Positions 46,236 to 63,126 of a DNA stretch of 64,000 nucleotides are shown one piece after another (the stretch's first letter is position 1; each line of letters opens with the position of its first letter). This DNA comes from Jatrophihabitans sp. GAS493. GTDB lineage: Bacteria; Actinomycetota; Actinomycetes; Mycobacteriales; Jatrophihabitantaceae. Location: positions 1,612,001 to 1,676,000 of the forward strand of contig NZ_LT907982.1 of NCBI RefSeq assembly GCF_900230215.1. Reading direction: 5' to 3'. Both the position numbers and the translations under genes were made by a program. Below the pieces are notes generated by a model. It was not told where the DNA came from. It was given only the letters and a program-made list of their open reading frames with translations, and did not search any database.

Positions 46236-46311
46236 GCCGCCTTAGCTCAGTCGGTAGAGCACCTCACTCGTAATGAGGTTGTCCGGAGTTCGATTCTCCG
46301 AGGCGGCTCCA
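46236..46311 (+). tRNA. tRNA-Thr (CGT)
   Basis: A complete 76-base cloverleaf: acceptor GCCGCCT/AGGCGGC, D-arm GCTC/GAGC, anticodon stem CCTCA/TGAGG with loop CTCGTAA (anticodon CGT, reading ACG), T-arm CGGAG/CTCCG with TTCGATT loop, and encoded CCA. It is the integration target of the element that follows: its last 46 bases recur exactly at 53848-53893. Confidence 0.96.
46266..46311 (+). repeat. attL core, 46-bp direct repeat
   Basis: From ACTCGTAATG in the anticodon arm through the CCA end of tRNA-Thr; identical to 53848-53893. The sequences outside the repeat differ at both ends, as expected for the crossover region of a tRNA-targeting integrase. Confidence 0.88.
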
Positions 46312-46353
46312 TCTCCAGGTCCCAGATTTAGGGGCCTCCGTCGCCAATACCCC

Positions 46354-46402
46354 GTGTGCCGTACTCCCGTTTCGCAGTCCGTGTCCCCATGGTGTCCCCG
46401 GA
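46354..46402 (+). repeat. Imperfect direct repeat, copy A
   Basis: A stretch ending TCCGTGTCCCCATGGTGTCC resembles copy B at 46990-47038 (TCCGTGTCCCGGTGGTGTCC). The pair flanks the hypothetical gene between them. Confidence 0.5.
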
Positions 46403-46424
46403 GTTCCGCCGACGGACCGGGACG

Positions 46425-46913
46425 CTATGGAGCCGTGGGATCCGCGATGATGTCGCTGACTGCGGCCGCCCACTCGGCGAAGGTCATGGAGTCGGTTGCG
46501 TCCGTTCGGCAGAGACATACGCCTGCGTCCGGGCCGCCAGTGCTCCAGCGTGCCGGATCAGCCACGAGCGCCCGCGCGTCGGAGCGCTGGAGTACCCAGT
46601 AATCCTTGTTGAGGGTTGCCCGGGATTGCCAATCGGCGTCGTAGGTGTACCGATGGATCTCCGCGGGCTTACGGATGGTGTGCGATCGCGCTACTGCGAT
46701 GCAATGAAGCCATCCGGCGTCGAACCATCGCAATAGAACCGCGCTGCAGCTTTCGATGCTCCACGGCCCCTCAACGAACGTTTGGTCTCCACCGAGGTAT
46801 TCAGTTACGGGCGAGCCAATCTCCCAGAACGGGGCTTCCTCGTAGACGAGTGTGAGCATCTGACCGACCAGACCGGTTGGGGTCAGTGAGCGTTGTTGTT
46901 CAGGTTCGGCCAC
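46425..46913 (-). CDS. Hypothetical protein of the integrated element
   Basis: A 162-residue soluble protein from GTG 46913, with segments VGQMLTLVYEEAPFWEIGSP, WSIESCSAVLLRWFDAGWLHC and WVLQRSDARALVADPARW. The aromatic and acidic pattern looks like a genuine protein but I recognise no family. It is the only gene between the tRNA and the first insertion sequence and is flanked by imperfect direct repeats. It could be an element-borne immunity or accessory protein; nothing proves this. Confidence 0.6.
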   Translation of the reverse strand: MAEPEQQRSLTPTGLVGQMLTLVYEEAPFWEIGSPVTEYLGGDQTFVEGPWSIESCSAVLLRWFDAGWLHCIAVARSHTIRKPAEIHRYTYDADWQSRATLNKDYWVLQRSDARALVADPARWSTGGPDAGVCLCRTDATDSMTFAEWAAAVSDIIADPTAP

Positions 46914-46989
46914 GAAGCGAACCTACCCGGCCCAAGTGCGGAGATCTACCGATCGGAGCAGCGTCATGCTCCCTCAGCCGTTGGCCCTT

Positions 46990-47038
46990 CTGTGCCATCG
47001 TCTGCATACGCATTCCGTGTCCCGGTGGTGTCCCGGGA
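46990..47038 (+). repeat. Imperfect direct repeat, copy B
   Basis: The partner of copy A at 46354-46402, about three-quarters identical by eye. It ends about 20 bases before the truncated IS256 sequence begins. Confidence 0.5.
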
Positions 47039-47061
47039 GATTCTGGGTTTACCACACCCGG

Positions 47062-47206
47062 TCGTTGTATGCGAAGAGGATGACGACTGGTGACATCGCC
47101 AACCACCTAGCCGATATCTACGGAACTGACGTCTCTCGGGAGTTGGTGTCGAAGGTGACCGACGCCGTGATCGGCGAGATGCAGGAGTGGCAGTCACGCC
47201 CATTTG
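47062..47206 (+). pseudogene. IS256 transposase, 5' fragment
   Basis: Reads RMTTGDIANHLADIYGTDVS, then RELVSKVTDAVIGEMQEWQSRPFD, the region before the first catalytic Asp of IS256 transposases. The N-terminal part is absent and the frame ends at the IS30 insertion. Confidence 0.8.
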
Positions 47207-47217
47207 ACCGCGGGCGG

Positions 47218-48448
47218 ATTCCAGTGATCGTTGCGAATCAGCTGGCGATGAGATGACTACGCCATCGTGCCATTAGCTGGTGTGGAGTGCGGTCTTGGAG
47301 GCATTCTCTCGGGCGGTCGTTGAGTTCGTCGGCGACCTCGCGCAGACGCTCATCGCTGATGATGCTTAGGTCGCTGCCTTTCGGGAAGTACTGACGGAGC
47401 AGCCCGTTGGTGTTTTCGTTCGTTCCGCGTTGCCAGGGTGAGTGGGCGTCGGCGAAGTAGATCTTCGTTCCGGTGGCAAGTTCGATCCGTTCGTGGTGGA
47501 ACAGTTCGTTGCCTTGGTCCCAGGTCAAGGTGCGGCGCAGTCCGTGCGGGAGGTTGTGCAACGCAGCGATAAGAGCGTCACCGACGCGGGGGGGCGGTCC
47601 ACGGGCCACGGATCGGGACCAGGATGGTGTGTCGAGTCTTCCGCTCGACGAGAGTTGCTATGGCGGAGTGGCGTCCGCATCCGAGGATAAGGTCGCCCTC
47701 CCAGTGGCCGATCTGTGTCCGGGTCTCGACAATCGGCGGCCGATGATGGATGGACTTCATGTTCGTCAACTGCTTCAGAGCACCGTCGCGGGTGCGTCCT
47801 CGTCCGCGTTTGTGTCGGTAAATACGGCCGGTCCGTAGTGTCTGTCGGTCGATGACTACGACCAAGCCGCGATAGACGGCTTCGTAGATGGTCTCCACGC
47901 TCAGATGCCATGACCTGCGGCGCGGCCAGCGGCGCCGCAGCCACCGACTGATCTGGCGCGGTGACCAGTGCCGCCGAAGTTTCACCGCGATCACGGCCCT
48001 CAACTGTTCGTCGACTGCAACTCGCCGCGGTTTTGGCCGCTGCCGACGCAGGTATGCCTGGTTGTGAGCAAACCAGGGTTGGTAGCGGCCATCGGCCTTA
48101 CTGTTACGTGCGATTTCCCGATAGACAGTCTGGTAGCTCTTGCCGATCCGGGCCGCGATGAACTTGACTTTCTCGCCAGCGGCGAGGCCGTCGGCGATCT
48201 CGATACGGTCGTCTTGAGTCAGGTAACGGCCGCTGATAGGCCGCTCAAGGAAGTTCACGCTCCCAGCGTCGATGAACCACAGCGACCCACAGCTCGGCGA
48301 CACTCCGACCGCAAGCGATGCCTGCACCCCGGTGGCCCCGAGCCGGGTCAGGTCGAAGAACCTACGCTTCGACTCAGCCGACGCCTTGTTCCACGCCCAG
48401 TGCGGCATGACGAATCCTTCCCTCAGGATTCGCAACGACCGTTAGAAA
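47218..48448 (-). mobile_element. IS30-family insertion sequence
   Basis: About 1.23 kb with imperfect terminal inverted repeats sharing GTCGTTGCGAATC (left, 47218-47245; right, 48421-48448) and one transposase gene reading leftward. It sits inside the IS256 transposase gene just before the segment encoding VYPVVLIDA. A target-site duplication is not clear. Confidence 0.8.
47238..48408 (-). pseudogene. IS30-family transposase with frameshift
   Basis: From ATG 48408 the frame covers the N-terminal helix-turn-helix (KFIAARIGKSYQTVYREIARN), RRHWSPRQISRWLRRRWP and the first catalytic Asp in HWEGDLILGCG. It then runs out near 47578. In the next frame the DDE core continues: LTWDQGNELFHHERI (second Asp) and HSPWQRGTNENTNGLLRQYF (catalytic Glu), ending at 47238 inside the left terminal repeat. 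The break lies at a run of seven C (47588-47594 region); removing one C restores a full-length protein of about 390 residues. It is therefore either mutated or read by slippage. Confidence 0.85.
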
Positions 48449-48449
48449 C

Positions 48450-49197
48450 CGCCGCGTGTATCCGGTGGTGTTGATCGACGCGATCGTGTTGAAAGTGCGC
48501 GACGGCCAGGTCGCGAACCGCCCGGTCTCGTGGCGATGGGTATCACCGTCGACGGGCAACGTGACGTGCTCGGGATGTGGGTCGGGCCCTCAGGTGGGGA
48601 GGGCGCGAAGCAGTGGATGAACATGCTGACGGAGCTGCGTAATCGTGGGATCCTCGACCTGTGCATCGTGTGCTGCGACGGGTTGAAGGGTCTGCCCGAC
48701 GCGATCACCGCGACCTGGCCCCTCGCGGTCGTGCAGACGTGTGTGGTGCATTTGGTACGCAACAGCCTGGCTACGCGTCGAAGGCCGACTGGGGCAAGAT
48801 CACCGCCGAACTGAGGACGATTTACACCGCAACGACGGTGACCGCGGCCGAGGAACGCTTCGCCGAGTTCACCCAGAAATGGCAGCCCAAGTACCCGGCG
48901 ATGATCGGGATGTGGCAACGGTCGTGGACGGAGTTCACACCGTTCCTCGACTTCCCCGTCGAGATCCGGAAACTGATCTACACGACCAACGGCATAGAGT
49001 CCTTGAACGCTCGTTTTCGGCAGGCGACCCGACGGCGTGGGCACTTCCCCAACGAGCAAGCCGCACTGAAGATCCTGTACCTGACCGTCAAAGAACGCCG
49101 CCCGAACCGGGCCAATCCGACCGGCCAGATCAACGGCTGGAAATCCATCCTGAACACCCTGGCAATGACCTACGGCGACCGCCTAGGAATCAACTAG
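48450..49197 (+). pseudogene. IS256 transposase, 3' fragment with frameshifts
   Basis: Reads VYPVVLIDAIVLKVRDGQVA (first catalytic Asp), then VAMGITVDGQRDVLGMWVGP, CCDGLKGLPDAI (second Asp) and HLVRNS. After a frame change near 48775 it reads ADWGKITAELRTIYTATTVT, FLDFPVEIRKLIYTTNGIES (catalytic Glu) and the usual ERRPNRANPTGQINGWKSIL end with a stop at 49195. At least two lesions, near 48520 and 48775, plus the upstream IS30 insertion, make it non-functional. Confidence 0.85.
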
Positions 49198-49230
49198 CCA
49201 TGACCCCTTACACAGAAAATCTGACAGACC

Positions 49231-49343
49231 CCCGAGTGGGAGCCGCCAAACGCGAGCAGTCGGGCTAGGAGTTCGCCTGGATCGGATTGACCCAGAAACA
49301 GTTAGGCAGTCCACTGCAAGTTCTTTCAGCTCGACAAACACTT
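49231..49343. other. Short gap after IS256
   Basis: I see no gene here. It separates the IS256 right end from the 3' end of the repeat lipoprotein gene. Confidence 0.4.
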
Positions 49344-49931
49344 CTATGCCCTTGCGAGGGGTGTTGGCGTCGGAGGCACACCACCGTTGTGGGCGCAGGA
49401 CGGAACCTGACACGGCGACGTGCCCGCACCGGTGATGGGTGTCGGTGTCGGCACCGGAGGCACACCACCGTTGTGGGCGCAGGACGGAACCTGACACGGC
49501 GACGTGCCCGCACCGGTGATGGGTGTCGGTGTCGGCACCGGAGGCACACCACCGTTGTGGGCGCAGGACGGAACCTGACACGGCGACGTGCCCGCACCGG
49601 TGATGGGTGTCGGTGTCGGCACCGGAGGCACACCACCGTTGTGGGCGCAGGACGGAACCTGACACGGCGACGTGCCCGCACCGGTGATGGGTGTCGGTGT
49701 CGGTGTCGGCGTCGGAGGCACACCACCGTTGTGGGCGCAGGACGGAACCTGACACGGCGACGTGCCCGCACCGCCGACCACCGACGTGCCTTGCTTCGCG
49801 ACCGGGCGGGCCACCGTCCCATCGCCGTTAGGGGCGGGACAACTCACGAGGGCGGCGGCTGTCACAGCCACCACGATGAGACCGATATATCGGCCGAGTG
49901 CAGTTCGACTTCGTTTGCTAGCGGAGAACAT
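49344..49931 (-). CDS. Lipoprotein with five Cys-containing 28-30-residue repeats
   Basis: The 195-residue protein starts with a signal peptide (SRTALGRYIGLIVVAVTAAA) and lipobox LVSC, so Cys31 would be lipidated. After a short spacer come five near-identical units of the type GAGTSPCQVPSCAHNGGVPP followed by PTPTPIT. Each carries two Cys five apart and a Pro/Thr linker; the unit nearest the N-terminus has an extra PT pair. The protein ends LARA. The ATG is one base after the stop of the G1 peptidase-like gene, so the two are an operon. The unit could be a disulfide-closed mini-domain displayed on a PT stalk, or a substrate of the peptidase. I know no such family. Confidence 0.75.
   Translation of the reverse strand: MFSASKRSRTALGRYIGLIVVAVTAAALVSCPAPNGDGTVARPVAKQGTSVVGGAGTSPCQVPSCAHNGGVPPTPTPTPTPITGAGTSPCQVPSCAHNGGVPPVPTPTPITGAGTSPCQVPSCAHNGGVPPVPTPTPITGAGTSPCQVPSCAHNGGVPPVPTPTPITGAGTSPCQVPSCAHNGGVPPTPTPLARA
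49372..49785. repeat. 84-bp tandem repeat, five copies
   Basis: Units begin with GGAGGCACACC at 49372, 49456, 49540, 49624 and 49714: three steps of 84 bases and one of 90, where an extra GTCGGT is present. Copies are nearly identical in DNA, which implies recent expansion or gene conversion. Because the period is a multiple of three, other frames also stay open through the array. Confidence 0.92.
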
Positions 49932-49932
49932 G

Positions 49933-50625
49933 TCAGGTACCTTCAGTTCCGCAGGTCTTAAAAGTATCCGTAAATGCGTCCGTTGTCGCACCGCCGGACA
50001 CACCAGAATACCAAGTTCCTGCGTCGTTGTACATATCGATTCCGAGGTGCGCCGCCAAACTGCGGATTGGCGAAAGCGCCCCGCCGTTGATGGAAACTTC
50101 GGAGTTCGTCCACGCGTCGCTACCATAGTTTCGAAGCGTTGACAGACTACCCGAAACGGTCGCACGCTCCTCGATCATTTCACCAGACAACCCGCTGTAG
50201 AAGGTGCTCGTGTAGTAAATGCTGCCGCCGACGTAGAATTCGGCGTACGGGCCGAGGTTAGCAATTGCACCGGTGTCCAAGTCATGCCACTGAAACGTGA
50301 CGACCGGCCCGCCTGTGGCGGATCCCGTTGCATCTACGTTCGTCGCAATGTTAAACAGGTCTCCGACTCCGTTACTAGGGTCTCCCGAGATCGTGACCGG
50401 CACTGTGCCTGTGTCAATTCCGCCATTCAGGGCCTCGTAGAACGGATAGGTACCAATTGTGTGGCCCGTAAAGCATCCATTCTGCAGCAACTTGGTGTCG
50501 CCGCCGGCACCACCAATTCCGACCCAATTGGTGTACCTGTCCGGTTGTATCACGCATTGGGCGCCCTTAACATAAGATGTTCGACCGTAGGCCTCAGTCA
50601 CGCCAGATTGCTGATCTATCATTTC
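49933..50625 (-). CDS. G1 (eqolisin) glutamic peptidase-like protein, no signal peptide seen
   Basis: Starting from ATG 50625 it has 230 residues. TNWVGIGGAGGDTKLLQNG matches the conserved Trp-Val-Gly and catalytic Gln of G1 peptidases (Gln47). GEMIEERA followed by LRNYGSDAWTNSEVSINGG matches the segment with the catalytic Glu (Glu148). YPFYEAL, VPVTISGDP and FQWHDLDTGA are the expected strands between. G1 enzymes are normally secreted, but no signal peptide is in frame directly upstream, so the true start may differ or the 5' end may be truncated. It is followed after one base by the repeat lipoprotein and is divergent from another lipoprotein at 50684. Confidence 0.72.
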   Translation of the reverse strand, partial: EMIDQQSGVTEAYGRTSYVKGAQCVIQPDRYTNWVGIGGAGGDTKLLQNGCFTGHTIGTYPFYEALNGGIDTGTVPVTISGDPSNGVGDLFNIATNVDATGSATGGPVVTFQWHDLDTGAIANLGPYAEFYVGGSIYYTSTFYSGLSGEMIEERATVSGSLSTLRNYGSDAWTNSEVSINGGALSPIRSLAAHLGIDMYNDAGTWYSGVSGGATTDAFTDTFKTCGTEGT

Positions 50626-50683
50626 CGCAGTCGATATACTGGACGTGTACCTACAACTCACTGCGAAGCGGGAACGGTGGCAC

Positions 50684-51193
50684 ATGCTAGATCGATCGTC
50701 CGATCGCCGACCGGGCCGGCGCCGAGCTCGATATGCGTTCGTTGCTGCCGCAGCGATAGGCGCCGGGCTGATCTCGGGGTGTGCGTCCGCGGCGGATCGC
50801 CCCGCTTCTTCGGTCGAATCAACCGCAGTGTCCGGACAGCCAATCGATCCAAACTCCTCGAAAATCCTCGGGTTGGTATCGCAGGCCGGCACGCTTAACA
50901 GCGATCCGAACCCGACGGATATCACTTGGGTGTACGCCTCCCGAGGTGCCATCGCCAAGACGATGGACTTTGGGATTCCAGACGACGAAGCGCAGCATCA
51001 ACAGGTCCTAATCGTTGCCCACGGGAACTTTACGAGTACAACAGCACGTGTGCCAGCAGGCGCTACGGCACCAACCGGCAACGTTATGGAGCTGGTGTAC
51101 GACACGACCACCTGGGAGAGCACCGATTTCGGTCTGGCCACGTCTGCGCCCGACCTGACCCCGCTTGGACAGATTTACAAGTCCAACGGCTAG
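50684..51193 (+). CDS. Lipoprotein of unknown function
   Basis: The 169-residue protein has an Arg-rich N-terminus, hydrophobic stretch YAFVAAAAIGAGLI and lipobox LISGC, making Cys33 the lipidated residue. The mature part (KILGLVSQAGTLNSDPNPTD, ITWVYASRGAIAKTMDFGIP, MELVYDTTTWESTDFGLA) has mixed strands and no recognised domain. GCGGGAACGG lies upstream of ATG 50684. It diverges from the G1-like gene by about 58 bases, so the three secreted genes may share a regulatory region. Confidence 0.65.
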   Translation: MLDRSSDRRPGRRRARYAFVAAAAIGAGLISGCASAADRPASSVESTAVSGQPIDPNSSKILGLVSQAGTLNSDPNPTDITWVYASRGAIAKTMDFGIPDDEAQHQQVLIVAHGNFTSTTARVPAGATAPTGNVMELVYDTTTWESTDFGLATSAPDLTPLGQIYKSNG

Positions 51194-51599
51194 GGCGGCG
51201 AACTTTCACCCATGCTGGCTCGGTCGTGTGGAGCGTGCAGACCTTGACGTCCTACTCGCTGAGTTGCGAGTTCACGGTCCCAGGTCCACGAGCGCAAGTA
51301 CAGCAGCAAGTACAGCAGTCCAGGACGAGATCATCGAGGGCATCCTCTGGCCGTCGCAACCAACGAACTGGCCGCGAAGCCCCCTGCACCCTAGCCTCCA
51401 TCCGCTGACAGCCCACAAGCTCGGGGGAGCGGCCGTGTGGGAGTGCCCGTCCGACCGGACCACCGTAGCTAGAATCGGCACGCTGACCGCCGACGGCCTC
51501 GACCAACGATCCGAGCAGATTTTTGCGCGTACGTTGCTGTCCGGGAAGGTGGGTTGGGTGCCCGGCGCGATGGGCTGTGACGGCATCCCTCTGTGCATG
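51194..51599. other. Stretch without a supported gene
   Basis: Some 400 bases between the lipoprotein and the IS110 remnant. Frames are open on both strands but show no family motif, ribosome site or consistent codon pattern. It may be decayed DNA from the IS110 element or the host element. Confidence 0.4.
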
Positions 51600-51961
51600 A
51601 CGCGACGAGCTGAAGGCGGACTGGGTCCGTGGGGTGAACCGGTTGCGGGCGATGCTGGGCGCGATCTTCCCCACCTTGGAGCGGGCTTTGCCCTACACCA
51701 GTCGTGGCCGCTGATTCTGTTGACCGGCTTCCAAACCCGCAGTGCCCTCCGCGACGCCGGACCGGAGATCGTGCGCGCTCACCTGGTCGAGAACGGTACG
51801 CACTCTCCGTCGGTCCCGGGGATCGTCACCAAGGCGATGCGGGCAGCGGCCGAGCAGACGATCAGTGTTCCCGGCTCGGTGATCTGCCCCGTCTCGACCG
51901 GAGGTTCAAGCTACTCGAGAAGCAGCTCTTTGCCGAAGTCTCGCCGTTGCACACTCATTGA
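51600..51961 (+). pseudogene. IS110-family transposase remnant
   Basis: Three frames joined together read DELKADWVRGVNRLRAMLGA, IFPTLERALPYTSRG, then (after one base) PLILLTGFQTRSALRDAGPE and GIVTKAMRAAAEQTISVPG, then RLDRRFKLLEKQLFAEVSPL before a stop at 51961. This is the middle and helical region of IS110 transposases. The N-terminal DEDD domain and the C-terminal Ser domain are missing, so it is a dead fragment with at least two frameshifts. Confidence 0.75.
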
Positions 51962-52015
51962 GAGTTCCGGAATCGACCGGTTACTTGGCCACCTCGGTCC
52001 TTGCTGGCTGGGGTG

Positions 52016-53416
52016 TCATCGGCTGGTGATGTCGCCGAGTTTCCAGGTGCGGTCGAAGTAGGTTTCGAGTGGTCCGTAGAGGCGGAAGTAGCTGAACCAG
52101 TGTCGACCGGGAATGGTTTGCACCCAGTTGGTGTCGCCGGTGTCCGGCGGGTTCGGGCCGAGGTAGAGGTCGATCGATCCGTCGTCGTTGTAGTGCAGGT
52201 CTTCATCCCGTGAGCCGCGGTCGCCGCGTTGTTGGGAGTTGTCGATCAGGCAGCGGGTCCAGACGTCATAGACGGTGAACGACCAGAACAGCTTGGCTGG
52301 CGGGTTGGCTGGGATGTGGATCGTGTAGTCCTTCGCGCCGTCGAGCCACTTACCGTCCGCGTCCGTGTAGCCGCCGAGGTAGGCCTGTCCTTGGCCCGGT
52401 GTCTGACTCTTCATCGCGGCGGAGAAGCTGACCGCTTCGTAGAACCACGACGCCCGTTCGAGGAGTTGGTCGTGATCGGGGCCACGCTGATCGGAGCTGT
52501 CCAGGTCGATGGCCAGGAACCATTGGCGATCAGGCCACCAACGGGCGTCGGGGAAGCGCTTGGCGAAGGTATTGGCCTGGGCCATCAGTTCCCCCGCCTC
52601 TGCACCCTGGGTCAAGATCGAGGTGAGGCGCTCGTCGGGGGTGAACGGTTTGCCTTTCTCAATGCCGAGTTGTTTGAGCATAGCCAGGTAGAAGCGGTCG
52701 CGTTCGTCGACGATTTCGCGCTGGTAGATGTCGTGCAACCGGACCCAGTAGTCCAGGCCGCGCGGTTGATCACCAGTCCACCGCCGGCCTTCGGGCGAGA
52801 CGATCCGGGTCGGCGGCGTGTCCCGCTCGGAGTACGGGTAGACCTTCACGCCCCGCACGAGCGCATCCGAACGTTGCGGGTCCGGGTCAAGAGTGCGGAA
52901 GCCGAACATGATGTTCATCCCCGTCGCATGCTGGACGTAGTAGTCATCGCCGACGTCAGGCGCCTGTTGGCCCGGTGGGACCACGACGTGCTTGCCACCC
53001 TGCCCGTGGTCCGGACCCATCTCTCCCAGGACCGCGCATTCTCGCTGCCAGAAGTCGGAGATGCCGCCCGCCGTCGGTCCGGGCGGTAGCTCAATCACGA
53101 GTGGCCCCGTCTCGGCGAGGTCGAAGAAGTTCAGGACATAGGGCGTCGTCGCGTTCGCAGTAATGAGGCCCAGCCGATCTCGGTAGCTGAGATAGCGAAC
53201 GAGATCCGAACTGGTCGCACCGAACACCTCGTAATGCTGGATTTTCCATTGCGCGTACGACACCAGTGGCAGCGCCCACAAGTAGGCCTGACAGGCCATC
53301 TGATAGTCGAGCTCATCGAAGATCAACCCGACGTCGGCAACCCGCGGCAGCTCCGCATCACGTCCCACTGCGCCGAGCCGACCTGGCAATCCCGACTTCG
53401 CGTCCCCAACAGACAT
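52016..53416 (-). CDS. DUF1254/DUF1214 domain protein
   Basis: A 466-residue protein with an N-terminal DUF1254 part (YQMACQAYLWALPLVSYAQW, ANATTPYVLNFFDLAETGPL, VIELPPG) and a C-terminal DUF1214 part (YFRLYGPLETYFDRTWKLGD at the end, PAKLFWSFTVYDVWTRCLID before it). The reaction is unknown; members are often secreted, but no signal peptide is visible here. It is full-length and has no frame break. It lies within the integrated element, converging on the IS110 remnant. Confidence 0.85.
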   Translation of the reverse strand: MSVGDAKSGLPGRLGAVGRDAELPRVADVGLIFDELDYQMACQAYLWALPLVSYAQWKIQHYEVFGATSSDLVRYLSYRDRLGLITANATTPYVLNFFDLAETGPLVIELPPGPTAGGISDFWQRECAVLGEMGPDHGQGGKHVVVPPGQQAPDVGDDYYVQHATGMNIMFGFRTLDPDPQRSDALVRGVKVYPYSERDTPPTRIVSPEGRRWTGDQPRGLDYWVRLHDIYQREIVDERDRFYLAMLKQLGIEKGKPFTPDERLTSILTQGAEAGELMAQANTFAKRFPDARWWPDRQWFLAIDLDSSDQRGPDHDQLLERASWFYEAVSFSAAMKSQTPGQGQAYLGGYTDADGKWLDGAKDYTIHIPANPPAKLFWSFTVYDVWTRCLIDNSQQRGDRGSRDEDLHYNDDGSIDLYLGPNPPDTGDTNWVQTIPGRHWFSYFRLYGPLETYFDRTWKLGDITSR

Positions 53417-53847
53417 GCGACCACCAATCCTCGATTGACCCCGCGACGCGTCAGAGCGCGGTCCCTCTCTTCAAACTAAAGGATGGTCCATCGAGGATGA
53501 CCCCCGCTCGTCGGCGTGTCCGGTAAACAGGCCTCGAACCGTATTTGATCGCTCTGAGCGGCGATCCGGCATCGAGGTGCGAACAGGCGCCACCACCGAG
53601 CCGCAGCAAGCACCAGCAGTACCGTCGACTGGTGGCGGCTGGACTCGGTTGGTGTCGAACTACGGCAGCAAGGCTCAGGCGATGTTCGAATCGGTGAGCG
53701 GGGGGAGCCCGAGGCCACAAAGAATGTCACCAGATGCCCCGGAACTGCGCAACACGGCGAAGAAGGCGGTGACGGCGAAAGCCGGCGAACATAGCACCTG
53801 TGGGCCCTGATCGACACGGCCTGGTACTTGCAATCACAGAAGTTGCG
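53417..53847. other. Gene-poor end of the integrated element
   Basis: These 431 bases between the DUF1254 gene start and attR contain no convincing gene. A plus-strand open stretch ending near 53810 (SVSGGSPRPQRMSPDAPELR) lacks a ribosome site and family similarity. The position is where an integrase or excisionase would often lie, but none is recognisable. Confidence 0.45.
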
Positions 53848-53893
53848 ACTCGTAATGAGGTTGTCCGGAGTTCGATTCTCCGAGGCGGCTCCA
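53848..53893 (+). repeat. attR core, 46-bp direct repeat of the tRNA-Thr 3' end
   Basis: An exact copy of 46266-46311, including CCA. The preceding bases do not continue the tRNA (TGCG instead of CCTC), so this is a fragment, not a second tRNA gene. Confidence 0.88.
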
Positions 53894-54658
53894 GGCTTCG
53901 GCCTCGTTCAACGAAGCCGCCTCGGCCGGGCTGTACGAGGACGGGATTGTCGCACTGGTGATGAGTTCGATGCGGGATCTCTCTGAGCAACGCAACTGGG
54001 CAAGATCCGTGGTGGCGAGCCGGCCCGGCGACGCGGTAAGGCAGGCGCGGGCGTGAACGTCATCGAGACGACGGGTCTGGCCGCCGCTACGATTGAGCGC
54101 CGCGATCCTCGCCTTCGTCCTGCTCGTCATGGCCGTAGCACGCCAGCTGTCCGGCTCCTGATGGTCCACTCAACTACCGGAAGCCCTCCGTACGAACCTG
54201 TCGATCTGAGCGGACTCGCGCAGCGTCCGTGACCCGCGAGCGTATCCCGAACGATGAATTGAGCACTTCCGCTGGCGGTGGCGGCCATCGTGGTTGGGTC
54301 TGTGTTGTGGGGGCGCGCGTTCCGCCCAGCGGGCGTGGAGGGGCAGGATGACGCGGCCGTCTGTTCGGTGAGGACTGAGTGGGTCGTCGCCGATGCTGAT
54401 CGTAGGCCGAACGATGATCGACTCTCGGCCTGGCGGCGCTGTTTTGCTCGGTATGGATGACGCCGTCATCTCACGTCGATTGCCACGCTCCCCATGGTCG
54501 AGAGTGCCCTTCGATGAACCGATTGCCGCCCGCCGAACCCGACTAGCGCAAGCTGCGCCGCGCGCCGTCCCGCCGGCTACTTACAGAGCCGATCGAGTGC
54601 ATTGGCCTCAACAAGTGTGCCCTCAGGTCATGTTCGATCGGCATAGCGAAAGATTTCG
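53894..54658. other. Gene-poor region after attR
   Basis: There is no gene I can support in 765 bases. A small hairpin with arms GGCTTCG/CGAAGCC starts at about 53894. A short plus-strand hydrophobic stretch (LSAAILAFVLLVMAVARQL, about 54100-54160) ends in a stop and may be a remnant of a membrane protein. The right end carries the regulatory region of the sugar cluster. Confidence 0.4.
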
Positions 54659-54659
54659 A

Positions 54660-54679
54660 AATCGTTATCGATAACGATT
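54660..54679. promoter_or_regulatory. LacI-type operator upstream of sugar ABC genes
   Basis: AATCGTTATCGATAACGATT is a perfect 20-base palindrome with the central CG typical of LacI/GalR operators. It overlaps the start of a candidate -35 box. A variant lies before the lacI gene at 60514-60531. Confidence 0.88.
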
Positions 54680-54706
54680 GACATCGTCATTCTGAGGTGC
54701 CAGGCT
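54678..54706 (+). promoter_or_regulatory. Candidate promoter of the sugar ABC operon
   Basis: TTGACA (54678-54683) and CAGGCT (54701-54706) with 17-base spacing. The -35 box shares its first two bases with the operator palindrome, so bound repressor would block polymerase. Confidence 0.6.
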
Positions 54707-54758
54707 CGCTCCTGGCAGTTGCCTCCCAGGTCCGCCCGACGAGACAGAGGAGTTACAC

Positions 54759-56072
54759 ATGATCAGAAAGACACGGGTTGCGGCATTCGTCGCGCTCGGT
54801 GCGAGCGTTGCGCTCCTTACGACCGCGTGCACCAGTAGCAGCGGGGGGAGCGGGAGCGACAGCAGCAGCGGCGCGTCGGCGACGCTCACGCTGTGGACGA
54901 ACGCGACGACGGGTCCAGGCTCGCAGTTCTTCACCGAGACGGTGAAGTCATTCGAGAGCGCACATCCGAACGTCACGATCAAGATTCAGATCGTTCAAAA
55001 CGAAGACCTCGACGGCAAGTTGCAGACCGCCCTACAGGGGGGTAAGAGCACAGCACCGGACATCTTCCTCCAGCGTGGTGGTGGCAAGCTTTCGGCGATG
55101 GTGCAGGCCAACCAGGTGCTCGACATCTCCGATTCGATTTCGCCGGATACCAAGGAGGCGGTTAGTCAAGGCGCGTTCGCCGCTGAGCAGGTCGATGGGA
55201 AAACCTACGCAATGCCGGTATCCGTTCTTCCGGGCGGCTTCTGGTACAGCAAGGACGTCTTCGACCACGCAGGCGTAACCACTCCGCCCACAACGTTGGA
55301 CTCGCTGAACCAAGCGGTCACCAAGCTGAAGGCCTCTGGCGTCGCCCCGATCGCCCTCGGCGGCAAGGACGCCTGGCCCGCGGCTCACTGGTACTACTGG
55401 TTCGCCCTGCGCGAGTGCAGCCAGAGCGTCCTGAACTCGACCGCCAAGAGTTTGAAGTTCGAGGATCCGTGCTGGACGAAAGCCGGCAACGACCTGCAGG
55501 CCTTCGCCGCGACGAAGCCCTACAACGATGGGTTCCTCAACACCTCGGCTCAACAGGGTGCTGGAAGCTCGGCCGGCCTGATCGCCAACCACAAGGCCGG
55601 CGCCGAAGTTATGGGTGCCTGGGATCCGGGCGTCATCGGCTCCTTGACGCCGGACCAGAAGGCTCTTCCGGACCTCGGGTTCTTCCCGTTCGTTCAGGTG
55701 CCGGGCGGCCAGGGCGATCCGAAGGCGATCATGGGTGGCGTTGACGCCTACTCCTGCTCCGCGTGGGCGCCGAAGCAGGCATGCACCGACTTCCTGAACT
55801 ACCTGGATACCCCGACGGTCCAGGAGGGTTACTACAAGGCCTTCCAGGCGCCGCCGGTGAACAAGACGGCGCAGTCGGTCGTGACTGAGCCTTACCTGCA
55901 GGCCGTCATCCAGGCGTTCAACAGTGCACCGTATGTGTCGCTGTGGCTCGACACGCTCTACGGCCAGAACGTCGGCAACGCCCTGAATACCGCCGTCGTC
56001 AACCTGCTGGCGGGTAAGGGCTCGGCCGAGGACATCATCAAGTCGGTCGACAAGGCCTCGGCGAAGGGGTAG
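54759..56072 (+). CDS. ABC sugar transporter substrate-binding lipoprotein
   Basis: A 437-residue family 1 binding protein. Signal VAAFVALGASVALLTTAC gives lipidated Cys24, followed by a Ser/Gly linker. The mature part has TLTLWTNATTGPGSQFFTET, APDIFLQRGGGKL, MPVSVLPGGFWYSKDVFDHA and EVMGAWDPG, as in binding proteins for oligosaccharides. GAGGAG lies eight bases before the ATG. It is the first gene of an operon with two permeases, a GH3 enzyme and a LacI repressor, and probably delivers the sugar that the GH3 enzyme cuts. Confidence 0.92.
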   Translation: MIRKTRVAAFVALGASVALLTTACTSSSGGSGSDSSSGASATLTLWTNATTGPGSQFFTETVKSFESAHPNVTIKIQIVQNEDLDGKLQTALQGGKSTAPDIFLQRGGGKLSAMVQANQVLDISDSISPDTKEAVSQGAFAAEQVDGKTYAMPVSVLPGGFWYSKDVFDHAGVTTPPTTLDSLNQAVTKLKASGVAPIALGGKDAWPAAHWYYWFALRECSQSVLNSTAKSLKFEDPCWTKAGNDLQAFAATKPYNDGFLNTSAQQGAGSSAGLIANHKAGAEVMGAWDPGVIGSLTPDQKALPDLGFFPFVQVPGGQGDPKAIMGGVDAYSCSAWAPKQACTDFLNYLDTPTVQEGYYKAFQAPPVNKTAQSVVTEPYLQAVIQAFNSAPYVSLWLDTLYGQNVGNALNTAVVNLLAGKGSAEDIIKSVDKASAKG

Positions 56073-56081
56073 TTCCAGGCC

Positions 56082-57113
56082 ATGAGCGACACGCACGTCG
56101 AGAACTCTTCGACCCTGAAAGATTCGCTCGACGGCGTTGAGGCTGTCGGCGGCGGCCGGGCAACCGTGCCGTCGCCGGCGGTTCGTCGGCGCGGCCGCCG
56201 GAGGAGGACCAGCTGGCGAGCACGCTTCGAGATCGCGCTTCTCGCCGGTCCGGCGATCCTCATCTTTGTCGGGTTCGTCATTCTCCCCGTCGGACTTGCC
56301 GCCTACTACGGCTTCTATCGGTGGAAAGGCTACGGCCCGCCGACGGACTGGGTTGGTCTCCATAACTACTATGTGATCTTCACCGACAGCGACTTCCAGG
56401 CGGCGCTGAGGCACAACATCTACATTGTCCTACTTTCATTGCTCATTCAGGGCCCCCTGGCGATTCTGCTGGCGTTGTTGCTGAACCGGGATATTCGCGG
56501 CCGGAACCTGATCAGGGTGTTGATCTTCGTGCCCTGGGTGATTTCGGAGGTCATCGCCGGCACCGGGTGGAGCTTGATCCTCGCCACGAACGGCGCGTTC
56601 AACGACCTGCTCCGCAACGTCGGGCTTGGGCGCTTCACCGCCGACTGGTTGTCCGATCCACATTGGGCGTTGTGGTCACTGATGGCGATCCTCACCTGGA
56701 AGTACTTGGGATTCGCGGTGCTGCTCTTCATGGCTGGGATGCAGAACATCCCGGAGGAGGTCTACGAAGCCGCCTCGATCGACGGCGCCAGTTACTGGCA
56801 GTTGCACCGCAGGATCACGCTGCCGCTGCTCGCCCCGACGATCCGGATATGGGCTTTCCTGTCGATCATCGGGTCGCTGCAGCTGTTCGATCTGGTGTAC
56901 ATCATCTGGGGTCAGTACGTCGCGGGCACCGCCGGCGTCTCCACCATGGCGACCTACATGGTGCAGAACGGACGCAACGCGGGCAACTACGGCTACGGCA
57001 ACGCGGTCGCGGTTGTCCTCTTTCTGATCTCGCTATTCATCGCGCTGGTCTACCAGCGATTCGTCCTCAGGCGCGACACCGAAGGTGCCATCACGATCGG
57101 AGACAAGCGGTGA
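56082..57113 (+). CDS. ABC sugar transporter permease, MalF type
   Basis: A 343-residue inner-membrane permease with six main helices after a 50-residue basic cytoplasmic N-terminus. The EAA loop is EEVYEAASIDGASYWQLHRR, followed by ITLPLLAPTI, the contact site for the ATPase. It starts nine bases after the binding protein and overlaps the next permease by four bases. Confidence 0.92.
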   Translation: MSDTHVENSSTLKDSLDGVEAVGGGRATVPSPAVRRRGRRRRTSWRARFEIALLAGPAILIFVGFVILPVGLAAYYGFYRWKGYGPPTDWVGLHNYYVIFTDSDFQAALRHNIYIVLLSLLIQGPLAILLALLLNRDIRGRNLIRVLIFVPWVISEVIAGTGWSLILATNGAFNDLLRNVGLGRFTADWLSDPHWALWSLMAILTWKYLGFAVLLFMAGMQNIPEEVYEAASIDGASYWQLHRRITLPLLAPTIRIWAFLSIIGSLQLFDLVYIIWGQYVAGTAGVSTMATYMVQNGRNAGNYGYGNAVAVVLFLISLFIALVYQRFVLRRDTEGAITIGDKR

Positions 57114-57982
57114 GCACACAAACCCTTGCCAGGACCGGACGTTCCCGGCGCAAGCCGACCAGGACCCGGCACTGGGACAGCCCGGTCGTGTACTTCGTCG
57201 CTCTCGTCGCCGTTGCGCTCACTGTCGCCCCGGTTGCGTACCTCATTCTCGGTGGATTCCGGACGAACTCGCAGATCACCGTCAGCCCGGCGGGGTTGCC
57301 GAACCCGTGGAAGATCGAAAACTACATCGATGTCCTGAAGAGTCAGACGTTCTGGCGCGAGGCGGGGAACTCGACCGTCGTCGCGCTGGCGACGACGCTC
57401 GGCGTCGTCATCCTCGGCGTGATGGCGAGCTTCACCCTCGCGCGGTACACATTCCGGGGACGGGGCGCGATGTACGCGCTGTTCGCGGCCGGGTTGATGT
57501 TTCCGATCACGGTGGCGATCACCCCGCTTTACCTGGTGCTCAAGGACATCCACTTGCTGAACACCCTCGGCGGCGTGATCTTGCCCCAGATCGCCTTCGG
57601 CCTGCCGACGACGATCATCATCCTGGTGCCGTTCCTCAGAGCGATTCCGCTGGAGATCGAGGAGGCAGCGACCGTCGACGGGTGCAGCAAGCTGGGGTTC
57701 TTCGTCCGCATCGTCCTACCGCTGTCACTGCCAGGTGTGCTCACCACCGCGATCCTCGCCTTCATCGCCAGCTGGAACTCGTACCTTCTGCCACTCTTCA
57801 TCCTCAACAGCCAGGACACGTTCACGCTTCCGCTCGGTGTTCAGGCCTTCAGCTCGCAGTACTCCACGGACACAGCCAAGGTTCTGGCGTTCACATCGAT
57901 GTCGATGATCCCGGCGCTGATCTTCTTCGCGTTGTTCCAGCGGCGCATCGTCAGTGGGCTGCAGGGTGCGGTCAAGGGCTGA
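57110..57982 (+). CDS. ABC sugar transporter permease, MalG type
   Basis: A 290-residue partner permease with six helices; EAA loop EIEEAATVDGCSKLGFFVRI followed by VLPLSLPGV. The GTG start overlaps the previous stop (GTGA). No ATPase gene is in the cluster. In actinobacteria such importers commonly share a multipurpose ATPase (MsiK) encoded elsewhere. Confidence 0.92.
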   Translation: MSTQTLARTGRSRRKPTRTRHWDSPVVYFVALVAVALTVAPVAYLILGGFRTNSQITVSPAGLPNPWKIENYIDVLKSQTFWREAGNSTVVALATTLGVVILGVMASFTLARYTFRGRGAMYALFAAGLMFPITVAITPLYLVLKDIHLLNTLGGVILPQIAFGLPTTIIILVPFLRAIPLEIEEAATVDGCSKLGFFVRIVLPLSLPGVLTTAILAFIASWNSYLLPLFILNSQDTFTLPLGVQAFSSQYSTDTAKVLAFTSMSMIPALIFFALFQRRIVSGLQGAVKG

Positions 57983-58047
57983 CGCCGTCGCCGTCGTGTC
58001 GTCGTCTCACCTACGCACTGCAGTCCCCGTTTTAGGAAAGGAATTCC

Positions 58048-60468
58048 GTGGTTGAAGTTCGCGCCATGCCCGAGGCATCCGAACAGGTCCGTGCACTGCT
58101 GACCCGCATGACGCTCGAGGAGAAGCTCGCCCAACTCACCGGATACTGGTTGGACCAGGGCGGGAACGTCGTAGCGCCCATGCAGGACGAGATGGCAGTG
58201 CGGCACGAGTCCGAGAGCCTTGCCGACATCACCCGCCACGGAATGGGTCACTACACCCGCGTGTACGGCACCCGTCCGGTGGAACCAGTTGAACGCGCAG
58301 CCTGGCTGTGGAACGAGCAACGGCGACTCAAGCGCGAGACCCGACTCGGGATTCCCGCGCTCGTGCACGAGGAGTGCCTGACCGGGCTTGCGGCGTGGAA
58401 GGCGGCCACGTTCCCGACGCCGCTGGCCTGGGGGGCGTCCTTCGACCCAGACTTGCTCTTCGAGGTGGGCCAGGTGATCGGTCGGTCGATGCGCGAACTC
58501 GGCATCCACCAGGGCCTGGCGCCAGTCCTCGACGTCGTCCGCGACCCTCGCTGGGGCCGTGTCGACGAGTGCATCGGCGAGGACCCGTACCTGGTCGGGA
58601 CCATCGGCACCTCATACACTCGCGGCCTGCAAGCGGCCGGGGTGCACGCGACACTCAAACACTTTCTCGGATACTCCGGATCGAAAGCTGGCCGGAATCA
58701 CGCGCCCGTAGCGGTCGGACCGCGCGAACTGGCAGATATCTTCCTGCCGCCGTTCGAGATGGCCATCCTTGACGGTGGCGCCCGGTCGGTCATGAACTCC
58801 TACAGCGACGTCGACGGACTGCCGGTCGCCGCGAACGTGGACTACCTCACCGGCGTGCTTCGGGAGAAGCTGGGCTTTGACGGAGTGGTCGTCGGCGACT
58901 ATTTCTCGGTCGCATTCCTCGAGGTGTTGCACGCAGTGGCCAGAGACCGCGGCGAAGCTGGCGCCATCGCCCTCGAGGCGGGCATCGATATCGAACTGCC
59001 GACCGGCGACGCCTACCTGAGCCCGCTCGCCGAACGGATCCGCGCCGGCGAGTTCGACGAACGATACGTAGACCGTTCGGTGCTGCGAGCGTTGACCCAG
59101 AAGGAGGCACTCGGCCTGCTCGACCCCGAGGTCTTCGAGGATTCGCCACCGCAGAACATCGACCTCGACTCGCCGCGGCACCGGGAGCTGGCGCACCGCC
59201 TGGCGGCCGAATCGGTGATCCTGCTGTCCAACGACGGCCTGCTGCCCATCTCCGGATGGCCGCGGCCGCCACGCCGAATTGCCGTCATCGGCCCGAATGC
59301 GGACCGGGTCGAGTCGTTGCAGGGCTGCTACTCGTTCCAGAACCACGTGCTTACGCAGTTCCCTGACTACGCACCGGGGTTCGCGATCCCGACCGTTCTC
59401 CAAGCGCTGGCGCCAGCCTTGGCCTCCGTCGGGTTGGGCACTTCCGAGATTGCGTTCGCCATGGGCTGCACGGTCGACGATCCGGACAGCTCTGGAATCG
59501 AGTCGGCGGCTGAGGCGGCCCGCGGCGCCGAACTCGCCATAGTGGTGGTCGGTGACCAGGCGGGTCTGTTCGGCCGGGGGACGGTCGGCGAGGGCAACGA
59601 TGCGGAGTCACTTGAATTGCCTGGGGTACAGCGACAACTAGTCGAGTCGGTCGTCGCGACGGGGACGCCGGTCGTGCTCGTGCTGGTGACCGGGCGCCCG
59701 TACGCGATCGGGTGGGCGCTGGATGGAGACCACCCCAAACCGGCCGCAGTCCTGCAGGCCTACTTCCCGGGCGAGGGTGGCGGTCTGGCTATCGCCGACA
59801 TCCTCACCGGCCGGATCAATCCCTCCGGACGCCTGCCCGTGTCGATGCCCCGCTCGTCCGGAGCGCAGCCGTACTCGTACCTGCACCCGATCCTGGGCGG
59901 CCCGTCCGATGTCACGGCGGCCGACTCGACTCCGTTACGCCCGTTCGGATTCGGACTGTCCTACACCAGCTACCACTACTCGGATCTGGTCGTCGACGAC
60001 GAGGTCTCGGCCGGTGGGGAGTTCAGCGCGACGGTCACCGTGACGAACAGCGGCGATGTGGCCGGTACGGACGTTGTCCAGCTTTACGGACAGGACATCT
60101 ACGCGACCATCACCCGCCCGGTTGCGCAACTGCTCGGCTACGCCCGCGTCGAACTCGCTGCCGGCGAGTCCAAGCAGGTGCAGTTCTCTGTACCCACGAC
60201 TCGGTTCGCGTTCACCGATCGGCGCCTGGTCAAGATCATCGAGCCGGGTGATGCCGAAGTGTGGGTCGGATCGCACGCCCTGGCCTCGTACGCCGGCGCT
60301 GACGTCGCTGCGAGCACCGGTGGCTCGATCGTCAATCACAAAGTCACGCAACGTTCGCGGACTCCCGGGACGGCGACGCCGCGGCTCACGATCGCGATCA
60401 CCGGCGACACCTACAAGGTCACCCCGGCCGACCCGCGTTGGGTAAATGTCAAAGTCACCCCGCCGTAG
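58048..60468 (+). CDS. Family 3 glycoside hydrolase (beta-glucosidase/xylosidase)
   Basis: An 806-residue retaining glycosidase without a signal peptide, so it acts in the cytoplasm on imported oligosaccharides. The N-terminal barrel holds LAPVLDVVRDPRWGRVDECI, LKHFLGYSGSKAGRNHAPV and the nucleophile Asp284 in FDGVVVGDYFSV. The second alpha/beta domain begins near AVIGPNADRVESLQGCYSF, and a C-terminal fibronectin-III-like domain follows RPFGFGLSYTSYHYSDLVV. The GTG start is supported by AAAGGAA seven bases upstream. Whether glucosides or xylosides are cleaved cannot be read by eye. Confidence 0.9.
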   Translation: MVEVRAMPEASEQVRALLTRMTLEEKLAQLTGYWLDQGGNVVAPMQDEMAVRHESESLADITRHGMGHYTRVYGTRPVEPVERAAWLWNEQRRLKRETRLGIPALVHEECLTGLAAWKAATFPTPLAWGASFDPDLLFEVGQVIGRSMRELGIHQGLAPVLDVVRDPRWGRVDECIGEDPYLVGTIGTSYTRGLQAAGVHATLKHFLGYSGSKAGRNHAPVAVGPRELADIFLPPFEMAILDGGARSVMNSYSDVDGLPVAANVDYLTGVLREKLGFDGVVVGDYFSVAFLEVLHAVARDRGEAGAIALEAGIDIELPTGDAYLSPLAERIRAGEFDERYVDRSVLRALTQKEALGLLDPEVFEDSPPQNIDLDSPRHRELAHRLAAESVILLSNDGLLPISGWPRPPRRIAVIGPNADRVESLQGCYSFQNHVLTQFPDYAPGFAIPTVLQALAPALASVGLGTSEIAFAMGCTVDDPDSSGIESAAEAARGAELAIVVVGDQAGLFGRGTVGEGNDAESLELPGVQRQLVESVVATGTPVVLVLVTGRPYAIGWALDGDHPKPAAVLQAYFPGEGGGLAIADILTGRINPSGRLPVSMPRSSGAQPYSYLHPILGGPSDVTAADSTPLRPFGFGLSYTSYHYSDLVVDDEVSAGGEFSATVTVTNSGDVAGTDVVQLYGQDIYATITRPVAQLLGYARVELAAGESKQVQFSVPTTRFAFTDRRLVKIIEPGDAEVWVGSHALASYAGADVAASTGGSIVNHKVTQRSRTPGTATPRLTIAITGDTYKVTPADPRWVNVKVTPP

Positions 60469-60513
60469 GTGGCGGCGTGGCGCCGGACGCCGACACCGAT
60501 GATAGGGGTCTCA

Positions 60514-60531
60514 AACGTTGTCGATAACGAT
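60514..60531. promoter_or_regulatory. LacI-type operator upstream of the repressor gene
   Basis: AACGTTGTCGATAACGAT is an imperfect palindrome around a central CG and shares its right arm with the operator at 54660-54679. It lies 22 bases before the lacI start, so autoregulation is likely. Confidence 0.78.
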
Positions 60532-60553
60532 CTCTAGCCGATAGTGTCACCCA

Positions 60554-61567
60554 GTGATGTCCAAGAGCTCTCGTGTCACCATTCACGACGTGGCACGGGA
60601 AGCAGGAGTCTCCCTATCGACAGTGTCGAAAGTGATCAACAACCGATACGGCGTCGCGGCCGCGACCTCTGCACGCGTGCAGAAGGTTATCGCCGAACTC
60701 GGGTACGAGGCCAGTCTGGTTGCGCAGAGTCTGCGCAACCACGAGACCAAGGTCATCGGGATCCTCGTCGCCGATCTGGAACCGTTCAGCACGGAACTTT
60801 TGAAGGGTGCTGCCGAAGGTGTCCGAGGCACCGGTTACGAGCTGGTCATCTACTCAGCGGGTGGTCGCACTGAAGCGCGCGACGGTTGGGAGCGGCGGTA
60901 TCTCTCACGACTGTCGGGCACCCTAATCGACGGCGCGGTGTTGGTCACCCCAACGATCGTCAGCGCTCAGTACGGCGCGCCGTTCGTTGCGGTCGACCCG
61001 CACACCGGCACGTCAGAGATACCCACCGTCGACGCCGACAACCTCCGCGGAGCGCAGACCGCTGTGCATCATCTGATCGAGCTCGGACACCGTCGCATCG
61101 CCATGCTCACCGGCCGCCCCGACCTGATGTCGGCGCAGTTGCGCGAACAGGGCTTCCGCACCGGTATGGCGCAGGCGGGCGTGCCCGTCGACGAGAGCCT
61201 CCTGCTGGTCGGCGACTACCGGGCAGACATCTCCGCGGAGGCAGCGAAAGCTCTGTTGACGATGGACGAACCTCCGACCGCGATCTTCGCCGCCAATGAC
61301 ATCTCCGCGATTGCAACGCTTGAAGTCGCGGTCGATCTCGGCCTTGAAGTACCGCGGGACCTGTCGATCGTCGGATTTGACAACGTCCCTGAATCCGTCC
61401 TGTGCACGCCGTCGCTGACCACCGTCGAGCAGCCGATCAGGGAGATGGGGCTGCGTGCCGTCGAGCTACTCCTGCAGCTACTACGAGCCGAATCGATACC
61501 AGCAACCCACCTCACTCTCGACACACGTCTCGTTGTGCGGCAGTCCACGTCCGCTCCACGGCGCTAG
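60554..61567 (+). CDS. LacI-family repressor of the sugar cluster
   Basis: A 337-residue regulator with N-terminal helix-turn-helix VTIHDVAREAGVSLSTVSKV and hinge helix (VAQSLRN region), followed by a periplasmic-binding-like domain (VIGILVADLEPFSTELLKGA, MLTGRPDLMSAQLREQGF, FAANDISAIATLEVAVDLGL, LSIVGFDNVPES). GTG 60554 and ATG 60557 are both possible starts. Matching operators before this gene and before the binding-protein gene link it to both. Confidence 0.93.
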   Translation: MMSKSSRVTIHDVAREAGVSLSTVSKVINNRYGVAAATSARVQKVIAELGYEASLVAQSLRNHETKVIGILVADLEPFSTELLKGAAEGVRGTGYELVIYSAGGRTEARDGWERRYLSRLSGTLIDGAVLVTPTIVSAQYGAPFVAVDPHTGTSEIPTVDADNLRGAQTAVHHLIELGHRRIAMLTGRPDLMSAQLREQGFRTGMAQAGVPVDESLLLVGDYRADISAEAAKALLTMDEPPTAIFAANDISAIATLEVAVDLGLEVPRDLSIVGFDNVPESVLCTPSLTTVEQPIREMGLRAVELLLQLLRAESIPATHLTLDTRLVVRQSTSAPRR

Positions 61568-61716
61568 AAACCTGATTCCGACCTGCTCATTCCGGCCCGT
61601 CCCGCCGCAGTGCTGTCATCTCAGCCTAGAACGTCCGTTCGCCGCGGCGGTGCCCATCAACTGAAGCCAGCGTGTTACCCATCAAGCGGGTACTCCGACA
61701 GTGTCTGGTGTCCCTG
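61568..61716. other. Gap between lacI and IS256 copy 2
   Basis: There is no gene in 149 bases. It ends at the IS256 left inverted repeat. Confidence 0.4.
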
Positions 61717-62901: not shown

Positions 62902-63126
62902 AGGTCGCGGCGGTGGCGGGGTCCCGCGCATCGCCACCGCAGCCGAGGTCGTAGGTCTGCCAGGTGGACCCGCGTATCCGCAATCCCTATAAGGGGATCC
63001 GGCAGTGCCTTGCGGTGGGATGCGTTCACTAGACGGTTTGAACGCGGCGCGGGCTCTGCGCCGTGAGGGTGAGGACAGATAGATCGCCGGTGACATGGGG
63101 CCGCACTATTGAGACAGGACATCGAG
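62902..63126. other. Region between IS256 copy 2 and the G1 peptidase
   Basis: There is no supported gene. The promoter of the peptidase should be here; I could not place it. Confidence 0.4.

Follow-up and report, generated by a model that had tools for sequence, protein, structure and literature searches.

Features of the tRNA-Thr(CGT) locus

The genome under study (G000) was a single contig of 4.88 Mb. The window analysed was a 64-kb stretch of this contig (G000:C1:1612001-1676000), whose sole tRNA gene, predicted with ARAGORN, was a tRNA-Thr(CGT) at 46236-46311 on the + strand. A repeat search of the window matched bases 46266-46311 to 53848-53893 at a spacing of 7582. The match was 46/46 bases, in agreement with the exact tRNA-Thr repeats around approximately 7.6 kb described in the initial annotation. 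The repeated bases are the end of the tRNA, from the anticodon loop through CCA. The element of approximately 7.5 to 7.6 kb between the two att copies (genome positions 1,658,312-1,665,847) is referred to as E1. Features of the locus, in window coordinates, were as follows.

46236..46311, + strand: intact tRNA-Thr(CGT) (ARAGORN); bases 46266-46311 form the left att core
46381..46401, + strand: putative integrase arm site, left (P') end; two period-11 units, 70 bp past the core
46425..46913, − strand: ORF, 162 aa, no family found
46991..47039, + strand: second copy of the left-arm region, 37/49 bases; no att core adjoining
47061..47192, + strand: IS256-family element, first block; 89% identical to a second copy at 61969-62100
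47213..48453, − strand: IS30-family element; 27-nt terminal inverted repeats, 81% complementary
48456..49230, + strand: IS256-family element, second block and C-terminal part of the transposase; 88% identical to 62121-62901
49344..50165, − strand: ORF containing tandem repeats of 84 bp; repeat region 49276-49779
49933..50958, − strand: ORF, 341 aa, no family found
50645..51193, + strand: ORF, 182 aa, lipoprotein-like by eye; overlaps the 341-aa ORF
52016..53416, − strand: DUF1254/DUF1214 protein, 466 aa (profile match)
53682..53847, + strand: right (P) end; 72% identical over 212 nt (including the core) to the right end of element A in the sister species G001
53724..53742, + strand: degenerate arm-like motif; the right core follows after 124 bp
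53848..53893, + strand: right att copy, 46/46 identical to the 3' part of the tRNA

The two cores lie in unlike flanks, with 8/30 bases matching just before them and 10/30 just after. The abrupt edge of identity at the anticodon loop is the expected footprint of an integrase insertion of the anticodon type, a class recorded by Islander (PMC4383910), and not that of a tRNA duplication. The initial annotation had held that its reading would fall if the second copy had arisen by tRNA duplication. An origin by chance or by such a duplication, with no site-specific recombination, has nothing in its favour beyond the repeat itself. A duplication would have placed the 5' part of the tRNA next to the second copy; this part was absent (the 8/30 match above), and the copy is not the product of whole-tRNA duplication. 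The same arrangement was also found at the same tRNA in other genomes. Given complete identity within the core and its sharp edge, this origin was rejected, and its probability is considered negligible.

The IS30 transposase is split over two overlapping frames (47238-47609 and 47578-48435). The IS30 element separates the two remaining blocks of the IS256 element, the second copy of which spans 61969-62901. The earlier statement that E1 lacks any recombinase was too strong, because IS30 and IS256 transposase genes are present. A weak match of the 182-aa ORF to CU044_5270 fell under the cut-off. A suspected IS110-like remnant at approximately 51.6-51.9 kb, picked by eye, gave no Pfam match and no tblastn match with a local IS110 protein and was discarded. 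The E1 ORFs that were scanned gave no match to a relaxase or Tra protein (some short ORFs lay outside the scan), and PADLOC detected no defence genes among five E1 proteins.

The GC content of E1 was 62.3%, versus 68.4% in the upstream 46 kb and 64.0% downstream. When 200 related genomes were searched with the 2-kb cargo stretch 49961-52015, the other 199 contained no long match; short matches of at most approximately 60 bp occurred in 21 of them. With the same stretch, no parent ICE or IME carrying the cargo of E1 was found among these 199 relatives. The description of the material as clearly foreign is supported by these results, together with the loss of synteny at the tRNA described below. 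Presence of the same 7.6 kb in all relatives with the second repeat missing, which had been named as counting against a mobile element, was not observed, the searched stretch not being common to them. Plasmid records matching the whole element numbered 588; among 15 listed, the matches covered the IS region or the DUF1254 gene only. A similar core was present in two plasmid records.

E1 could also be what is left of a prophage or phage satellite integrated at tRNA-Thr. A few actinophage records contain partly similar tRNA-Thr 3' sequence, in some cases near the end of the record, as would suit this origin. A place partly similar to the core was found in 10/50,697 phage records, four of which are from Rhodococcus phages and have an annotated tRNA-Thr. 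Against a phage origin, 0/7 E1 proteins matched a PHROG at E 0.01 (a set that excluded the IS proteins and the 84-bp-repeat ORF), and the 45-base core had no exact match in viral_contigs. We consider this origin very improbable.

Integrases and att copies in this and other genomes

None of the 10 E1 ORFs matched PF00589. A tblastn search with 27 proteins (approximately 20 real integrases, the remainder mis-picked ORFs) at E up to 1 gave matches to E1 at the tRNA/att borders only. An integrase fragment from G024, a genome of another family in the same order, matched E1 at E 5-9 only. No integrase remnant was seen within E1, and the initial annotation was correct in reporting no integrase. The whole genome contained 15 PF00589 matches, none between 1,254,087 and 2,093,087. 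No tRNA-Thr was found beside the 13 of these 15 that were checked; the two outside the tRNA scan lie around 3224000 and 3596000. The tRNAs near the scanned integrases were Ala, Met, Val, Gly, Pro and Arg. A 20-kb stretch of the genome (L035) contained tRNA-Phe, Asp, Glu and Ser, and four stretches with PF00589 matches (L059, L060, L062 and L063) contained no tRNA.

Two att copies of G000 lie inside islands at other tRNAs. The copy at 1265179 is 255 bp inside an exact 56-bp tRNA-Ser repeat (1265480-1265535) and shares its island with an integrase (1253419-1254675), which adjoins tRNA-Ser. The copy at 4727082 is approximately 310 bp inside a tRNA-Ala island with a far repeat (47 bp, 91%) at 4713310. 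These remote copies may be fossils of earlier att sites.

Synteny between G000 and G001, for which 239 kb of G001 were compared, reaches the tRNA (G000 1658337 = G001 3950313), is lost there, and is back at approximately 1769000-1772000 in G000, equivalent to approximately 3897000 in G001. Because synteny breaks at the tRNA and resumes beyond, the tRNA heads a variable region of approximately 110 kb in G000 and 53 kb in G001, and E1 is the tRNA-proximal part of this larger region. The two variable regions have nothing in common except the att-flanking ends and a single 866-bp stretch (G000 1757957-1758821, 73%). Window positions 53894-61900 gave one 49-bp match when compared with all of G001. 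A further diverged att copy (41/46, same orientation) is located at G000 1758949. In G001, further att copies at 3946342 (46/46) and 3942290 (diverged) bound two segments of approximately 4 kb, elements A and B. Element A encodes a B3/4-domain protein, an HTH-cupin regulator and an FMN-binding protein; element B encodes a caspase-domain protein and EACC1. PF00589 had no match in the tRNA-Thr variable region of G000 or G001. No empty tRNA-Thr site was found in the sister G001 (the only other genome of the genus compared), where the site is likewise occupied. The larger variable region, three more chromosomal att copies and the transposases are additional to what the initial annotation described.

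Such an arrangement might be produced by a satellite-like passenger that never had an integrase, E1 being moved in trans by a helper recognising the tRNA-Thr core and arm sites. Conserved ends enclose wholly different cargo, E1 and element A having only the right end in common. Three small att-bounded segments in two species are without a PF00589 match, and the first right-hand att copy is 46/46 in both. All of this would fit a passenger; the lack of an integrase gene beside tRNA-Thr in either species does not, nor does the degenerate right arm motif of E1, and the truncated integrases at the same tRNA elsewhere offer a simpler route. We regard mobilisation of this kind as unlikely.

A search for the core returned matches in 174/397 genomes, mostly the tRNA itself, and the 45-base core was also present in contigs titled Frankiales, Pseudonocardiales and Actinomycetota MAGs. 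Within the family, the core was found with up to 3 mismatches in 7/24 genomes and at least twice in 4/24 (G000, G001, G004 and G014). An integrase census was taken of selected genomes with two copies or integrase hints and is not a full survey. The integrase at tRNA-Thr(CGT) was open in five (G004, G088, G126, G270 and G356), truncated in three (G014, G019 and G024) and not found in two (G000 and G001). Over 64 residues, the G019 integrase piece shares 64% identity with that of G024, and no second att copy was found in the 12 kb of G019 that were read. Outside the census were G043 (one contig with two diverged copies 3.4 kb apart, and the tRNA on a separate contig), G124 (att copies split between two contigs), and G044 and G071 (partial integrase-like tblastn matches adjoining the tRNA). 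The progression from open through truncated to absent integrases at tRNA-Thr(CGT) is an apparent decay series, which bears indirectly on E1.

Arm-like motifs at the element ends

Elements at tRNA-Thr carry short direct repeats with a period of 11-12 outside the core, which we interpret as putative integrase arm sites. In G024, a tRNA-Thr element of 4.5 kb, whose integrase is truncated, has one 21-base motif at both ends; the left copy follows the tRNA by 85 bp and the right copy precedes the core by 114 bp. The left motif of E1 belongs to the same motif family as both G024 ends. The motif also precedes, by 113 bp, the att copies at G000 1265179 and G000 1758949 and the right core of element B in G001.

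A search of 13 genomes with the motif pattern gave 35 matches (4 exact, 1 with one mismatch and 30 with two mismatches); a reversed-pattern control gave 10. All five matches with 0-1 mismatch adjoin tRNA-Thr att copies, the right-hand ones at 113-114 bp from the core. Among the 30 two-mismatch matches, two are putative arm sites, at G000 1659017 (inside E1) and G001 3942429. These pattern matches are not independent, because the sites in E1 and G024 and the ends at 1265179, at 1758949 and of G001 element B had been seen before the pattern was written. The informative part of the search is that no other place in the 13 genomes is as close.

The open-integrase elements of G004, G088 and G126 each have their own repeated motif on both sides (p 0.007-0.147, uncorrected); for G126, the right end and second att copy are on another short contig. 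The 462-aa integrase of G004 contains an Arm-DNA-bind_4 domain. Two tests for period-11 repeats were applied, with uncorrected p values throughout. The left end of E1 was suggestive (p 0.090 in the stricter test, 0.013 in the other) and the right end was not significant (0.485 and 0.193, respectively). The right end of G004 gave p 1.000 in the stricter test versus 0.027 in the other. The left ends of E1 and G004 are alike by eye at a similarity below z 4, and the P arms of the two were likewise below z 4. The right ends of E1 and G001 element A gave z 20.8.

Both att sites are retained in E1, with exact cores, the left arm motif kept and the right arm motif degenerate. The left att of E1 looks complete and the right arm does not. 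At 37/49 bases, the internal copy at 46991-47039 is the best match to the left arm, as nowhere else in the window reaches 30. The two ends of E1 may derive from different insertions, because the right end is like that of G001 element A and a second left-arm region lies inside E1. The duplicated left-arm region would suggest a fusion of two successive insertions.

The tRNA-Thr of the genus might instead host a family of cassette-like passengers with only the att core and arm sites in common. These would be moved in trans by visiting integrases, swapping ends and cargo, and the att copies inside the tRNA-Ser and tRNA-Ala islands would mark integration-site switches. This scheme is held to be distinctly improbable.

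Origin of E1 and comparison with known systems

The att repeats, their sharp boundary, the shared motif, the lack of an integrase and the hot-spot context are direct observations. We consider it likely that E1 is a CIME-type relic, a tyrosine-integrase element minus its integrase gene. Insertion of an element with a tyrosine integrase would have involved a crossover within the tRNA-Thr(CGT) anticodon loop, with the tRNA regenerated at the left end and the 46-bp copy left behind at the right end. Its integrase gene, expected adjoining the tRNA, would later have been lost by deletion or rearrangement; this loss is inferred from the relatives, because no integrase remnant was seen in E1 itself. 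IS256 and IS30 copies have inserted within E1. The element has kept its two att cores and the left arm-like site; the right arm-like site is degenerate. The motifs are putative integrase-binding sites. E1 is probably incapable of self-excision; it might travel with a later element entering the same tRNA, or respond to an integrase in trans.

A decayed integrative element and a passenger mobilised in trans had been offered as alternatives at the outset. The first is the likelier, and that half of the proposal is supported by the arm-like ends, the truncated integrases in G014, G019 and G024 and the IS-broken cargo; the second is considered unlikely.

By the definition of CIMEs given in PMC5704250, E1 is like them in keeping attL and attR, in that integration and transfer genes were not found, and in its accretion-prone target gene. 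Unlike them, it is without a found parent ICE or IME of the same cargo. Among the Dehalococcoides ssrA islands, 15 are described as being without an integration module and were suggested to be CIMEs (PMC3146451). As here, those islands are in tandem, within approximately 100 kb downstream of one RNA gene, and bounded by copies of its 3' end. They involve a serine recombinase and the tmRNA T loop (PMC3146451), whereas the target here is a tRNA anticodon loop and the relatives' integrases at this tRNA are tyrosine recombinases. For AICEs, which target tRNA 3' ends, pSE211-type integrases at a tRNA-Thr gene, tandem arrays, and remnants have been described (PMC3218068). E1 is like AICEs in the use of a tRNA 3' end as target and unlike them in that none of the AICE gene set int, rep or tra was found in it. 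In combining a tRNA with a displaced 3' fragment at an anticodon-type attachment site, E1 resembles the islands recorded by Islander (PMC4383910). Candidates without an integrase are described as being filtered out by Islander, and E1 would therefore escape it (PMC4383910).

E1 is of a kind already known and is probably an unremarkable case of a decayed mobile island at a hot spot of integration; the evidence for arm sites and the nested att copies extend the initial annotation. These results suggest that arm sites can persist after loss of their integrase and may be used to trace decayed islands that are rejected by integrase-based finders. If such relics are movable in trans, they would form a hidden reservoir of mobile cargo.

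Repeats and ORFs in the window

The left-arm region of E1, the 7.6-kb integrase-less element at tRNA-Thr(CGT), comprises the sequence around a putative integrase arm site. This region was found duplicated inside E1 at window positions 46991-47039, with the adjoining att core absent. Further features of the window were recorded as follows.

49276-49779: 84-bp tandem repeats within an ORF, five in-register copies
61969-62901: second IS256-family copy, without IS30 insertion
63109-63942: ORF with Peptidase_A4 (G1 peptidase) domain

By eye and without HMM support, the 341-aa ORF of E1 resembles the Peptidase_A4 ORF in places.

Cargo of small segments in other genomes

Small tRNA-Thr att-bounded segments in the sister species G001 (element B) and in G024, from another family of the order, were observed to carry conflict- or defence-like genes.

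G001 element B, L024 8840-10854: caspase domain and EACC1
G024 element, L146 3152-7247: Abi_2, DUF6414 and AAA ATPase

A stretch of the GAS493 genome (1462321-1464499) is 78% similar to the caspase-domain/EACC1 pair.

tRNA-Thr att copies at other tRNAs

Two further tRNA-Thr att copies were located in GAS493 within islands integrated at other tRNAs.

1265179-1265225 (L021 3180-3226): 255 bp inside the tRNA-Ser island
4727082-4727127 (L023 8083-8128): approximately 310 bp inside the tRNA-Ala island

These copies are possibly fossils of an integration-site switch.
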